From Clostridia bacterium (lineage in GTDB: Bacteria > Bacillota > Clostridia > Oscillospirales > CAG-272): a stretch of DNA of 45,561 nucleotides. The translations under genes were made by a program, and so were the position numbers. Where the stretch lies: contig JAGBTM010000029.1 of NCBI GenBank assembly GCA_017631325.1, positions 1 through 45,561 on the forward strand. Reading direction: 5' to 3'. The notes under the pieces were generated by a model. It worked only from the letters and a program-made list of their open reading frames with translations. It made no database searches and was not told the DNA's origin. This document shows, piece by piece, positions 15,342 to 22,396 of the stretch. Each line of letters opens with the position of its first letter. Within the stretch, counting starts at the first letter, position 1.

Positions 15342-16682
15342 TTATATACCAAAGAGGGCTTTGATTTTGTCCTTATCAATTCCTGCTCCGATAACGCATA
15401 TTCTGCCGATAACCGCTGCTGAACCCTCTCGGATATCAGCCTCGCCCGGAACGTAGTCAAAGTGAAGCCACTTACCGCACTTACACTCAACTATGCCCTT
15501 GGCTCTGAGAACCATGCCGTACGCACCGTCCTCGGTAAAGGTATCGAGAATTTCGCGTATTTCTTCCTTTGAGAATTTCTTCGTAGTTTCTGCTCCGACA
15601 CTCTGAAATACGTCATCTGCGTGGTGATGGTGGTCACCGTGTCCGTGACAGCCACAGCTGCACTCTTCGTCGTGCTCGTGGTGATGCTCATGGCAGTGGC
15701 ACTCTTCGTCGTGCTCGTGGTGATGCTCGTGGCAATGGCACTCTTCGTCGTGCTCGTGGTGGTGCTCGTGGCAATGGCACTCTTCGTCGTGCTCGTGGTG
15801 GTGCTCATGGCAATGGCACTCCTCACCGTGCTCGTGGTGGTGCTCATGGCAGTGGCACTCTTCATCGTGGGCGTGGTGATGCTCATGGCAATGGCACTCT
15901 TCATCGTGGGCGTGGTGATGCTCATGGCAATGGCACTCTTCATCGTGGGCGTGGTGATGCTCATGGCAATGGCACTCCTCACCGTGCTCGTGGTGGTGCT
16001 CGTGGCAATGGCACTCCTCACCGTGCTCGTGGTGGTGCTTATGAGCCTTGTGCTCCTCTTCGAGCGCCTTTACAGCCTCCTCAAGTGTATCGCGCTTCTC
16101 TATTGCAGCGAGGATATCCTCACCGCAAAGGCTCTCCCAAGGGGTAGTTACTATAACGGCATCGGGGTTCTTCTCTCGGAGAAGAGCCACGCAGTCAAGA
16201 ATTTTATGCTCGGGAGCCGTGCCTGTATGTGAAAGGACTATGGCAGAGGCCGAAGAAATCTGGTCGTTATAGAACTCACCAAAGTTCTTCATATACATTT
16301 TGCACTTATTGACGTCGGCGACAGCGGTGTAGGAATTGAGCTTTGCTTCGGGAAGAGCTGCGCTCTCTACGGCACGGATAACGTCGGAAAGCTTGCCGAC
16401 GCCCGACGGCTCGATAACTATGCGCTCGGGGGAGAAATCCTCTACGACCTTAATGAGCGCCTTTGAAAAATCACCGACTAGCGAGCAACAGATACAGCCC
16501 GAGTTCATCTCGGTAATCTCAACACCTGCGTCCGCAAGAAATCCACCGTCTATACCAATCTCGCCAAACTCGTTTTCGATAAGAACTACCTTCTCGCCGG
16601 CGTATGCTTCCTTAATCAGCTTCTTTATAAGCGTTGTCTTTCCCGCACCGAGAAAGCCCGAAAAAATATCTATTTTAGTCAT
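15342..16682 (-). CDS. COG0523/CobW metallochaperone-like GTPase with ten His/Cys-rich repeats
   Basis: G3E-family GTPase of 446 residues implicated in metal delivery. Walker A GFLGAGKT (9-16), the ENEFGEIGID switch and the metal-binding GCICC motif (62-66) are intact, and a CobW C-terminal domain is present. Inserted between them is a low-complexity block of ten 13-residue repeats of the form HHHEHGEECHCHE, the last ending in GCHGHGDHHHH. His-rich insertions are typical of zinc- or nickel-linked COG0523 proteins. ATG 16682 is chosen over the in-frame ATG at 16730 because the predicted promoter places the transcript start at about 16729. The leader folds so that GGGAG comes near the start. 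It is first gene of a two-gene operon. The metal is inferred only as zinc or another transition metal. Confidence 0.9.
   Translation of the reverse strand: MTKIDIFSGFLGAGKTTLIKKLIKEAYAGEKVVLIENEFGEIGIDGGFLADAGVEITEMNSGCICCSLVGDFSKALIKVVEDFSPERIVIEPSGVGKLSDVIRAVESAALPEAKLNSYTAVADVNKCKMYMKNFGEFYNDQISSASAIVLSHTGTAPEHKILDCVALLREKNPDAVIVTTPWESLCGEDILAAIEKRDTLEEAVKALEEEHKAHKHHHEHGEECHCHEHHHEHGEECHCHEHHHAHDEECHCHEHHHAHDEECHCHEHHHAHDEECHCHEHHHEHGEECHCHEHHHEHDEECHCHEHHHEHDEECHCHEHHHEHDEECHCHEHHHEHDEECSCGCHGHGDHHHHADDVFQSVGAETTKKFSKEEIREILDTFTEDGAYGMVLRAKGIVECKCGKWLHFDYVPGEADIREGSAAVIGRICVIGAGIDKDKIKALFGI
15655..16044 (-). repeat. Ten tandem 39-bp repeats encoding 13-residue His/Cys units
   Basis: In-frame tandem repeats within the CobW-type gene. 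Units alternate between Glu-His-Gly, Ala-His-Asp and Glu-His-Asp versions, with similar types adjacent to one another, which suggests recent expansion by slippage or unequal crossing over. Confidence 0.9.
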
Positions 16683-16683
16683 T

Positions 16684-16720
16684 GTACAAGTCGCGACGCA
16701 TCTCGTCGCACTCCCTTTAA
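16684..16720 (-). promoter_or_regulatory. Leader with hairpin and possible eight-codon upstream ORF before the CobW gene
   Basis: The only good ribosome binding site (AAAGGGAG) is about 28 bases before the CobW ATG. A perfect six-base stem, GCGACG/CGTCGC, lies between, and folding it would bring the site to about 11 bases. Alternatively the site serves an ATG at 16701 that opens an eight-codon frame (M-R-R-D-L-Y-N-D), whose stop overlaps the CobW start. Confidence 0.45.
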
Positions 16721-16735
16721 AATATTTCATAGTTA

Positions 16736-16837: not shown

Positions 16838-16852
16838 TAGTGTATAAAAACA

Positions 16853-17087
16853 GATAGAGGCGCACTGCACGAAGATTACCGTATCAAGTAAAGCCGCCAA
16901 GGCGATATGGGAAAGGCGTGGGTGCCGAAGCGGATACTGTGGCAGGTATCTTGGCTGGCAGCTCGGAGAATATCCGTTCTGCTGTCGCAGAAATGCGGGG
17001 AGCTATCGAAAATTCAGGGTATTTGGGACGTTTTAGTTATAGTCCTTTTCCCGTGTATTTTGAGGTAGCCCTGTGGCTATCTTTTTT
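16853..17087 (+). promoter_or_regulatory. Lysine riboswitch (L box) with terminator, upstream of dapA
   Basis: The aptamer runs from GATAGAGGCGC (closing strand GATAG, 16853-16857) to GAGCTATC (closing strand CTATC, 17003-17007). Conserved L-box segments in between are GGGAAAGGCGT, GCCGAAG, CTTGGCTGGCAG and AATATCCGTTCTGCTGTCG. The expression platform is a terminator hairpin, GGTAGCC (17064-17070) with GGCTATC (17075-17081), plus six T (17082-17087). Lysine binding should favour termination, lowering expression of dapA and probably the downstream dap/lys genes. Class assignment rests on conserved motifs read by eye. Confidence 0.92.
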
Positions 17088-21353: not shown

Positions 21354-21370
21354 GTTGCGTTATATAAAAA

Positions 21371-21401
21371 GGCGTGAATGACAAGCATTCACGCCTTTTT
21401 T
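21371..21401 (+). terminator. Terminator after lysA, identical to the one ending the SLOG gene
   Basis: GGCGTGAATG (21371-21380), loop ACAAG, CATTCACGCC (21386-21395), then a T run. The same hairpin recurs exactly at 22309-22333, where it contains the stop codon of the SLOG-like gene. This copy may therefore be the remnant of an earlier module rather than the native lysA terminator. Confidence 0.9.
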
Positions 21402-21431
21402 ATTTACATTATACTATTTCAAATTTACTGA

Positions 21432-21460
21432 TTGACAAATACCATAAAAAGTGGTAAAAT
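21432..21460 (+). promoter_or_regulatory. Promoter of structured RNA A
   Basis: TTGACA (21432-21437), 17-base spacer, TAAAAT (21455-21460). The spacer ends AAAAGTGG, as in the second module. Confidence 0.82.
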
Positions 21461-21466
21461 GTATAT

Positions 21467-21605
21467 GCGACACATTTGAATATTTCCACTATCAAGGGAG
21501 TACTATAGGTAAAAATGTACTCTCTCGCCCTTGTATATAGTGGAAAATGTGTCGCAACATTGAGGGAGACATTTTTCGTGCGCCACTTCTGTTGGCGCAC
21601 TTTTT
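21467..21605 (+). ncRNA. Structured RNA A (module whose gene is lost)
   Basis: A predicted ~139-nt RNA. Nested helices: closing GCGACACATT (21467-21476) with AATGTGTCGC (21546-21555); CCACTAT (21486-21492) with ATAGTGG (21537-21543); CAAGGG with CCCTTG; AGTAC with GTACT. The apical loop contains GGTAAAA, and the internal loop contains AATATTT (21479-21485). A terminator follows, GTGCGCCA (21578-21585) with TGGCGCAC (21593-21600) plus TTTTT. The closing helix begins at the predicted transcription start, so the 5' end is base-paired. After the terminator an AGGAG (21612-21616) remains, but the start codon and gene present in the next module are missing. Confidence 0.75.
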
Positions 21606-21633
21606 GTTTTTAGGAGTTTTTTGGTTTTACAGA

Positions 21634-21662
21634 TTGACAAATACCGCGAAAAGTGGTAAAAT
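21634..21662 (+). promoter_or_regulatory. Promoter of structured RNA B
   Basis: TTGACA (21634-21639), 17-base spacer, TAAAAT (21657-21662). The 29 bases differ from the RNA A promoter at only three or so positions. Confidence 0.82.
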
Positions 21663-21668
21663 ATAGTC

Positions 21669-21824
21669 GTCACACAATCTAATATTTTTACTTGTTGGCG
21701 GGAAACTATCCTTGGTAAAAGGTGTTTCCTTTTTTCCTCATACCCGCTAACAAAGGTAAGAGATTGTGTGACAACAATGAAGGAAGCGCTTTTTCGTGCG
21801 CTGACTTCGGTTGGCGCACTTTTT
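21669..21824 (+). ncRNA. Structured RNA B (module with intact SLOG-like gene)
   Basis: A paralogue of RNA A with the same architecture but different helix sequences. Closing helix GTCACACAATCT (21669-21680) with AGATTGTGTGAC (21761-21772); TTACTT with AGGTAA; GTTGGCGGG (21694-21702) with CCCGCTAAC (21743-21751); AAAC with GTTT at the tip. The internal AATATTT (21681-21687) and apical GGTAAAA (21714-21720) are unchanged. The linker and terminator are close in sequence, with GTGCGCTGAC (21796-21805), a TTCG loop, GTTGGCGCAC (21810-21819) and TTTTT. Helices that change while pairing is kept, with conserved unpaired motifs, is the signature of a selected RNA structure. The SLOG-like gene begins 19 bases after the T run. 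It could be a trans-acting RNA or a cis-acting attenuator; the class is not recognised. Confidence 0.78.
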
Positions 21825-21842
21825 ATTTTTAGGAGCTTTTAT

Positions 21843-22319
21843 ATGGTAGTTACCTTTCACGGCGACGATAATTTTACTCCAAGTCAAAAATACAAAACCG
21901 CTATGCTGGAGTTTTTCAGAAAGCTATCAGGTGGCAAGCCACTAACCTTTTTAGTCAATTATGAGCTTCCGTTCATGCTTTTCGCCATTGACTGTATAAA
22001 GGAATACAAAACGGTAAACGGAGCTAAAACTGTTTTCGTGTCCCCTTACTCAAAATATCACTATGACAAATTTGAACTTGAACATCTTTTTGATAAATTT
22101 GACGAGGTTGTATTTTCAAATACCAACCACCTCCACGGTGAATTTCTAAAAGGTCAATGCAACGCTCACATGATGCGCGACGCAGACTGTACAGTTGCTT
22201 ATATCGACAGCGACGAGAGCCAAACGCACGTTTTGTGCCGTAGCACCATAGCATACGGTAAATCCGTATACTATCTCAGCGAGTGCGGTGTTAAAGAATA
22301 TAATTTTAGGCGTGAATGA
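21843..22319 (+). CDS. SLOG-superfamily protein (DUF1273/YpsA-like)
   Basis: A 158-residue protein. N-terminal VVTFHGDD matches the position of the TVTFIGHR strand-loop in DUF1273 proteins. FLVNYELPFMLFAIDCIKEYK and KTVFVSPY follow, then FDEVVF and the block NAHMMRDADCTVAYIDSDES ... AYGKSVYYLSE, which matches the Rossmann-like ligand site of SLOG folds. The usual Gly-Gly-Thr is replaced by Ser-Gln-Thr. SLOG proteins bind or process nucleotide-derived ligands, and some serve antiphage signalling; no specific activity can be claimed here. The ATG 21843 has AGGAG seven bases upstream. The stop codon lies within the downstream terminator. Expression probably depends on read-through of RNA B's terminator. 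Confidence 0.7.
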   Translation: MVVTFHGDDNFTPSQKYKTAMLEFFRKLSGGKPLTFLVNYELPFMLFAIDCIKEYKTVNGAKTVFVSPYSKYHYDKFELEHLFDKFDEVVFSNTNHLHGEFLKGQCNAHMMRDADCTVAYIDSDESQTHVLCRSTIAYGKSVYYLSECGVKEYNFRRE

Positions 22320-22339
22320 CAAGCATTCACGCCTTTTTT
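22309..22339 (+). terminator. Terminator of the SLOG-like gene
   Basis: GGCGTGAATG (22309-22318), ACAAG loop, CATTCACGCC (22324-22333), six T. The TGA stop of the gene (22317-22319) is inside the hairpin, so ribosomes finishing translation would cover its left arm. Confidence 0.9.
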
Positions 22340-22367
22340 ATGAAGAATTGTTTTCAATTTTAGGTTA

Positions 22368-22396
22368 TTGACAAATAACCGAGCATAACTAAAAAC
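22368..22396 (+). other. Decayed third module promoter
   Basis: TTGACAAATA (22368-22377) repeats the start of both module promoters at a similar distance after the terminator, but no -10 box remains at the expected place (AAAAAC at 22391-22396). It is interpreted as the remnant of a third module copy. Confidence 0.45.

Follow-up and report, generated by a model that had tools for sequence, protein, structure and literature searches.

Upstream of a lone gene for a SLOG-type protein, within a stretch of 45,561 nucleotides from a Clostridia bacterium (referred to here as the window), lie two structured RNAs, each with its own promoter and terminator. The question raised by this locus is what such RNAs do, and whether they belong with the gene that follows them. 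A prediction made from the sequence alone had seen in them a tandemly amplified, partly decayed RNA-plus-SLOG system, possibly selfish or defensive, with a layout like that of type III toxin-antitoxin loci. Our analysis points instead to a large family of RNAs that very probably act in cis as transcription attenuators of many different genes.

The cassettes of the window

Both predicted promoter-RNA-terminator cassettes are present, with small corrections of their coordinates (Table 1). Their folds were compared with dinucleotide shuffles, none of 200 of which equalled either fold (z −7.4 for 21467–21563 and −6.0 for 21667–21785), and GGTAAAA is retained by both RNAs. Before the terminator, RNA1 and RNA2 are identical in 77 of 128 aligned columns, as against 26 of 29 within it, and the same upstream part of RNA1 matches a copy from another genome of the genus (L212) in 102 of 112 columns. 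RNA1 is best explained as a mosaic or recombined copy that has lost its antiterminator and would be locked towards termination; judged from these alignments, the likeness of the two RNAs is partly due to this mosaic origin. The AGGAG behind RNA1 is followed by a 12-codon TTG frame. The view of the locus as an array with a decayed copy holds. RNA2, judged by its predicted pairings, is intact and has kept every part.

Table 1. Features of the RNA1/RNA2 locus, in coordinates of the window
Feature	Position	Strand	Remark
Terminator-like inverted repeat 3′ of lysA	21370..21403	+	First copy of exact 34-bp repeat
RNA1 promoter, TTGACA, 17 nt, TAAAAT	21432..21460	+	Position rule, 141/146 copies
RNA1, short-class leader, putative mosaic, without gene behind	21467..21605	+	R2 E 9.3e-19
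RNA1 P1	21467–21477 paired with 21545–21555		
RNA1 strand Y, GAGTAC	21498..21503	+	Pairs with X as local hairpin
RNA1 conserved loop GGTAAAA and strand X	21508..21526	+	
RNA1 tail X′	21562..21576	+	About −17.7 kcal/mol when paired with X, only −6.6 as antiterminator
RNA1 terminator hairpin	21578..21600	+	
AGGAG after RNA1, no gene behind	21612..21616	+	
RNA2 promoter	21634..21662	+	
RNA2, apparently intact short-class leader of SLOG-type gene	21669..21824	+	R2 E 9.6e-22
RNA2 P1	21669–21680 paired with 21761–21772		
RNA2 strand Y, GGGAAAC	21700..21706	+	
RNA2 conserved loop GGTAAAA and strand X	21714..21731	+	
RNA2 tail X′	21774..21794	+	−19.2 in the pseudoknot with X, −18.3 in the alternative pairing with the terminator (antiterminator)
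RNA2 terminator hairpin	21796..21819	+	−15.1
Ribosome binding site AGGAG of SLOG-type gene	21831..21835	+	
Divergent SLOG-type protein (putative), 158 aa	21843..22319	+	
34-bp terminator repeat, second copy	22308..22341	+	
TTGACAAATA, probable promoter remnant of lost further unit	22368..22377	+	

The predicted terminator repeat and the remnant at 22368 were also found. The two copies of the 34-bp repeat are exact, and a pattern with its 25-bp core hits these two places only in the whole genome; TTGACAAATA occurs in the window at 21432, 21634 and 22368 only. Together, the repeat and the TTGACAAATA that follows its second copy suggest a tandem unit whose right-hand part has since been lost.

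Among 30 genomes of the genus, the lysA gene was found in 24. It adjoins the RNA in 2 of the 23 of these loci that were searched, namely in the window's own genome and in G012, where the RNA is on the other strand. In one genome (G011), lysA and a glucosidase gene are separated by about 44 nt, with a single terminator and without the module, and the remaining lysA loci have different neighbours within 1.5 kb. A mobile or recombining cassette, in which the folded DNA would be the functional thing, might account for this empty site as well as for the direct repeat flanking the module and the mosaics (RNA1 and the chimeric L019_1724, described below). The sole empty-site comparison, however, is with one distant genome (lysA 69% identical), and fixed promoter spacing, terminator and antiterminator are sensible only as RNA, so that we hold this reading to be very improbable.

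Size, spread and anatomy of the family

A BLAST search of the window's own genome with the module gave five further places, and from the alignment of their copies came a covariance model of four long copies (R1); a second model was built from 22 short copies (R2). In the own genome R1 gave 16 matches at E < 1e-4, one of them an antisense shadow, which leaves 15 places, 13 of them outside the window. Of 40 genomes drawn from the genus, 33 had R1 matches at E ≤ 0.1 (up to 18 in one genome), and R2 likewise matched 33 of the 40; R1 gave none in G007, G008, G023 and G036, which are 92–98% complete. In wider draws R1 matched 116 of 196 genomes of the family (55 of 71 genera; E ≤ 1e-4), 68 of 197 of the order (E ≤ 1e-6), 61 of 245 of the class and, phylum-wide, 1 of 249, the window's own; draws of more than 40 genomes were searched under stricter filters, and these counts are lower bounds. 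An exact tail pattern was found in 91 stretches of the genome collection searched. The 80 listed of these are from metagenome-assembled Clostridia, Oscillospiraceae, Clostridiales, Eubacteriales, Firmicutes or uncultured bacteria, mostly of ruminant and deer gut.

Altogether 231 distinct copies were collected, of which 224 could be parsed and 7 could not. They fall into a long class (about 200–220 nt) and a short class (about 135–185 nt), to which both RNAs of the window belong. The copy at L019:1724–1940 (−) is chimeric, its first half being of the long class and its tail of the short class. Tandem copies less than 600 nt apart occur in eight loci beside the window (L038, L019, L110, L092, L112, L101, L126 and L208), with four copies in L126 and three in L208. 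The four at L126:887–1666 (−) are 55 nt apart, each with a promoter, and a clear gene follows the last only.

For these RNAs no Rfam 15 family reached its gathering threshold, whether in the window, in 20 loci or in 20 class-level loci, the sub-threshold matches including manA-II (25 bits, threshold 100) and SR1 (27.6 bits, threshold 45). A known RNA family was therefore rejected, and this check proposed with the original prediction came out in favour of the RNA. In the parts of the literature consulted (PMC8040213, PMC6429828, PMC11109978) the RNA is not described, and a candidate motif may stand in supplementary material. By the covariance searches this is apparently a large, class-wide RNA family of Clostridia, so far unlisted. 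At one locus a Gut-1 RNA (RF01706; L209:2783–2861, +) lies about 130 nt from a copy on the other strand.

From 5′ to 3′ the parts are the 5′ strand of P1, an A-rich loop (usually GGTAAAA) with strand X, the end of P1, the tail X′ and the terminator. In 141 of 146 copies a −10 box ends 6–7 nt before P1, whereas a control position had one in 8 of the 146, and this fixed position of the box indicates that P1 is the 5′ end of the RNA. A joint −35/−10 scan was scarcely above shuffled upstream DNA, although the fixed-place −10 test did exceed its control. An AATA is found in 125 of 147 copies and the loop motif, by a loose pattern, in 141 of 147; some short copies (for example L190, L194, L203 and L204) are without the A-rich loop and retain the tail pairings. 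Unlike many small-molecule riboswitches, the family has few strictly conserved unpaired bases. An open reading frame of at least 8 codons with a Shine-Dalgarno (SD) sequence lies inside the RNA in only 7 of 147 copies, and attenuation by a leader peptide was rejected on this ground.

Competing pairings of the tail

The tail X′ is complementary to the loop strand X, with which it would form a pseudoknot that leaves the terminator free. It is also complementary to the terminator, namely to its 5′ strand, its loop and some of its 3′ strand, clearly so in RNA2 and hardly in RNA1. Both complementarities had been overlooked in the original prediction, as had the further copies in the own genome.

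Matched partners paired better than mismatched ones throughout. For X:X′ the energies were −19.4 versus −17.8 kcal/mol in 69 copies not fetched by pattern, −16.9 versus −12.6 in 42 short-class copies and −16.5 versus −13.7 in 18 copies that belong to other families within the class (two of the 20 fetched, a fragment or weak match, were left out). The values for X′ with the terminator were −18.1 versus −16.5, −16.8 versus −11.3 and −17.3 versus −14.2 in the same sets. In most copies of the short and class-level set (51 of 60), strand Y pairs with X (−11.7 versus −6.8 mismatched), the pairing being weak in long copies (−4.8 versus −3.9). For X:X′, for X′ with the terminator and for Y:X in the short and class-level set, none of 10000 permutations, which ignore the relatedness of the copies, was as low.

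Covariation was studied in 105 long copies aligned to R1, a model from which the pseudoknot pairing is absent. In this fitted alignment, 9 of 12 pairs of P1 and 8 of 9 of the terminator had changed on both sides. So had 8 of the 15 pseudoknot pairs, with a covariation of 0.355 against at most 0.068 when the strands were slid. For the antiterminator, 7 of 10 tested pairs had both-side changes and the covariation was 0.240 against at most 0.103 slid; the gain over shuffles, which ignore the relatedness of copies, was modest (0.240 versus 0.192), and since antiterminator and terminator have columns in common, their covariation is not independent. These homologues with compensatory changes, together with the folds in the window, bear out the predicted covarying structured RNAs.

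Both pairings reach −10 kcal/mol or better in 143 of the 147 parsed copies that were not fetched by the tail pattern, and 179 of the 224 parsed copies have an antiterminator that outweighs their terminator in strength. From energies and covariation we conclude that two covarying, mutually exclusive pairings of X′ exist in this family. It could be supposed that copies without a gene have decayed in general, but this was not borne out by the 32 parsed copies that have enough downstream DNA and no clear gene (antiterminators −16.7 versus −17.8, p 0.43; pseudoknot p 0.047). Only RNA1 and L016_1501 stand out by a weak antiterminator, RNA1 having the second weakest of the 224 copies and L016_1501 the weakest.

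Downstream genes and proposed function

The original prediction distinguished a role in cis, with RNAs always preceding SLOG genes, from stand-alone RNAs acting in trans. The association with a gene held, without a restriction to SLOG: genes of many kinds follow the RNA, and a minority of copies stand alone. Downstream DNA of 200 nt or more was available for 225 copies. Of these, 192 are followed by an SD-preceded open reading frame of at least 40 aa, a count preferred to 208 of 225, which includes chance frames, that of RNA1 among them; with all frames taken, the median distance from terminator to start is 23 nt. Pfam assigned 64 families among 127 downstream proteins, the commonest being zinc ribbons (8), LRR_5 (7), SHOCT (7), DUF6809 (6) and MazE-like proteins (6), with YpsA in 2 and TnpV in 1. 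A small Cys-rich protein with a DITG motif (IDITG...CCCDECDYF) accounts for 19 of 192 targets; it stands behind the RNA at L140, L152, L195, L201 and others, and several of these look truncated. By crude patterns, 53 of 174 targets are lipoprotein-like, compared with 28 of 491 other genes of the same loci (odds ratio 7.2), and 104 of 174 versus 144 of 491 are envelope proteins. No coherent pathway is seen among the target genes. On these sequence assignments the targets are of many kinds, with lipoprotein-like proteins over-represented and SLOG genes in the minority.

The protein encoded behind RNA2 (the window protein) is probably a divergent SLOG-type protein. An alignment profile of it and eight SLOG-like proteins encoded next to other copies matched YpsA (2nx2, E 1.1e-5) and DprA (2e-4), in keeping with the predicted gene type; the protein alone had no match in Pfam (E up to 1), NCBIfam or PADLOC, and tblastn against whole-genome contigs found no relatives. 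These nine proteins, picked by eye, align, and a tenth begins behind L264; the window's protein lacks the GHR motif found in its relatives. The downstream protein of L012 was a false pattern match for SLOG and is actually a zinc ribbon.

In type III toxin-antitoxin loci the order is RNA, terminator, gene. A unit of this kind, or a defensive RNA-protein pair, would have in its favour the similar order of promoter, RNA, terminator and gene in the window, the patchy distribution (the four genomes of the genus without an R1 match) and the PADLOC models matched by some downstream proteins (24 families among the 127 proteins, the best match being PDC-S30 at 4.2e-94). The diversity of the downstream genes, the window protein without a match, and the attenuator pairings argue against it. 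A ToxN/TenpN/CptN-type toxin was found neither in the window protein nor among the 25 listed of the 64 families of the 127 downstream proteins. Neither RNA is an array of short repeats (RNA1 has one 15-nt pair at 80%, RNA2 has none), and viral contigs held no exact match to one tail pattern, a narrow test. We regard a selfish, defensive or toxin-antitoxin role as extremely improbable.

The explanation that we favour, and consider highly probable, is that the RNA is a 5′ leader acting in cis by transcription attenuation, in the manner of a riboswitch. It is predicted to be transcribed upstream of and together with the gene (from the promoter position and the SD-preceded frames), and it has an intrinsic terminator and a mutually exclusive antiterminator, as seen in the energies and covariation. 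The RNA would start at P1 and offer four strands. In the OFF state X′ would pair with X, the terminator would be free and only a leader of about 140–210 nt would be made; in the ON state Y would hold X in its hairpin, and the freed X′ would pair with the 5′ strand and loop of the terminator, so that polymerase continues into the gene. A ligand or protein may gate X, perhaps by contacting the GGTAAAA loop and the AATA bulge in P1. The family, the promoter position, both alternative pairings, the Y:X hairpin, the terminator and the gene behind can be read, as predictions, from the sequences; switching between the pairings in the cell, and which state is the default, we infer. The SLOG gene of the window would be one target of many.

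Attenuating riboswitches and leaders have the same layout of 5′ leader, terminator, competing antiterminator, SD and reading frame. The present family differs from them in that X′ is common to the upstream loop and the terminator, and in that one family, without an Rfam match, precedes many unrelated genes. The c-di-GMP riboswitches of Clostridia are similar in that a genome carries many of them and that they stand before surface and signalling genes; the new family differs in fold and has no match at threshold to those Rfam families in 40 loci and the window.

Would a free-standing small RNA acting in trans explain the data as well? Its terminated product of about 140–210 nt would be the functional one, and the gene behind would be reached by leakage. 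The RNA's own promoter and strong terminator suit this, as do the gene-less tandem copies (L126, L208, L092) and the 32 parsed copies that retain both pairings without a clear gene; since the antiterminators of such copies are not weaker as a group, there is room for a role in trans. A covarying antiterminator would, however, be purposeless in a plain small RNA, and the frequency and closeness of the SD-preceded frames also speak for attenuation, so that we consider a trans-acting RNA unlikely as the general explanation.

As to what the attenuator senses, its targets are biased to lipoproteins and membrane proteins, which suggests that the signal concerns the envelope or the surroundings. We put forward, tentatively, that one signal acts through up to 18 leaders per genome, the four-strand relay setting variable lipoprotein, membrane and accessory genes and with them the cell surface that these bacteria present in the gut. 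A serious possibility is that the same attenuator is gated by an RNA-binding protein, by temperature or by Mg2+ rather than by a small molecule; the few conserved unpaired positions and the freely varying helix sequences are consistent with this, but the relay itself is uninformative on the sensor.

If the attenuator reading is correct, about a quarter of the sampled genomes of this major class of gut bacteria (61 of 245) have an undescribed regulatory RNA, often in several copies, that precedes surface genes and accessory genes whose function is unknown. Such an RNA would be a new orphan switch and would give access to a regulon of bacteria that are mostly uncultured, as well as being a clear case of terminator, antiterminator and pseudoknot strands that co-evolve and recombine.

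Elsewhere in the window, a lysine riboswitch (Rfam RF00168, 84.8 bits; 16847–17013, +) lies before a dapA-like reading frame. The reading frame at 15342–16730 (−), which we take to be CobW/P47K-like, contains roughly ten His/Cys-rich units in tandem, for example EHHHEHDEECHCH.
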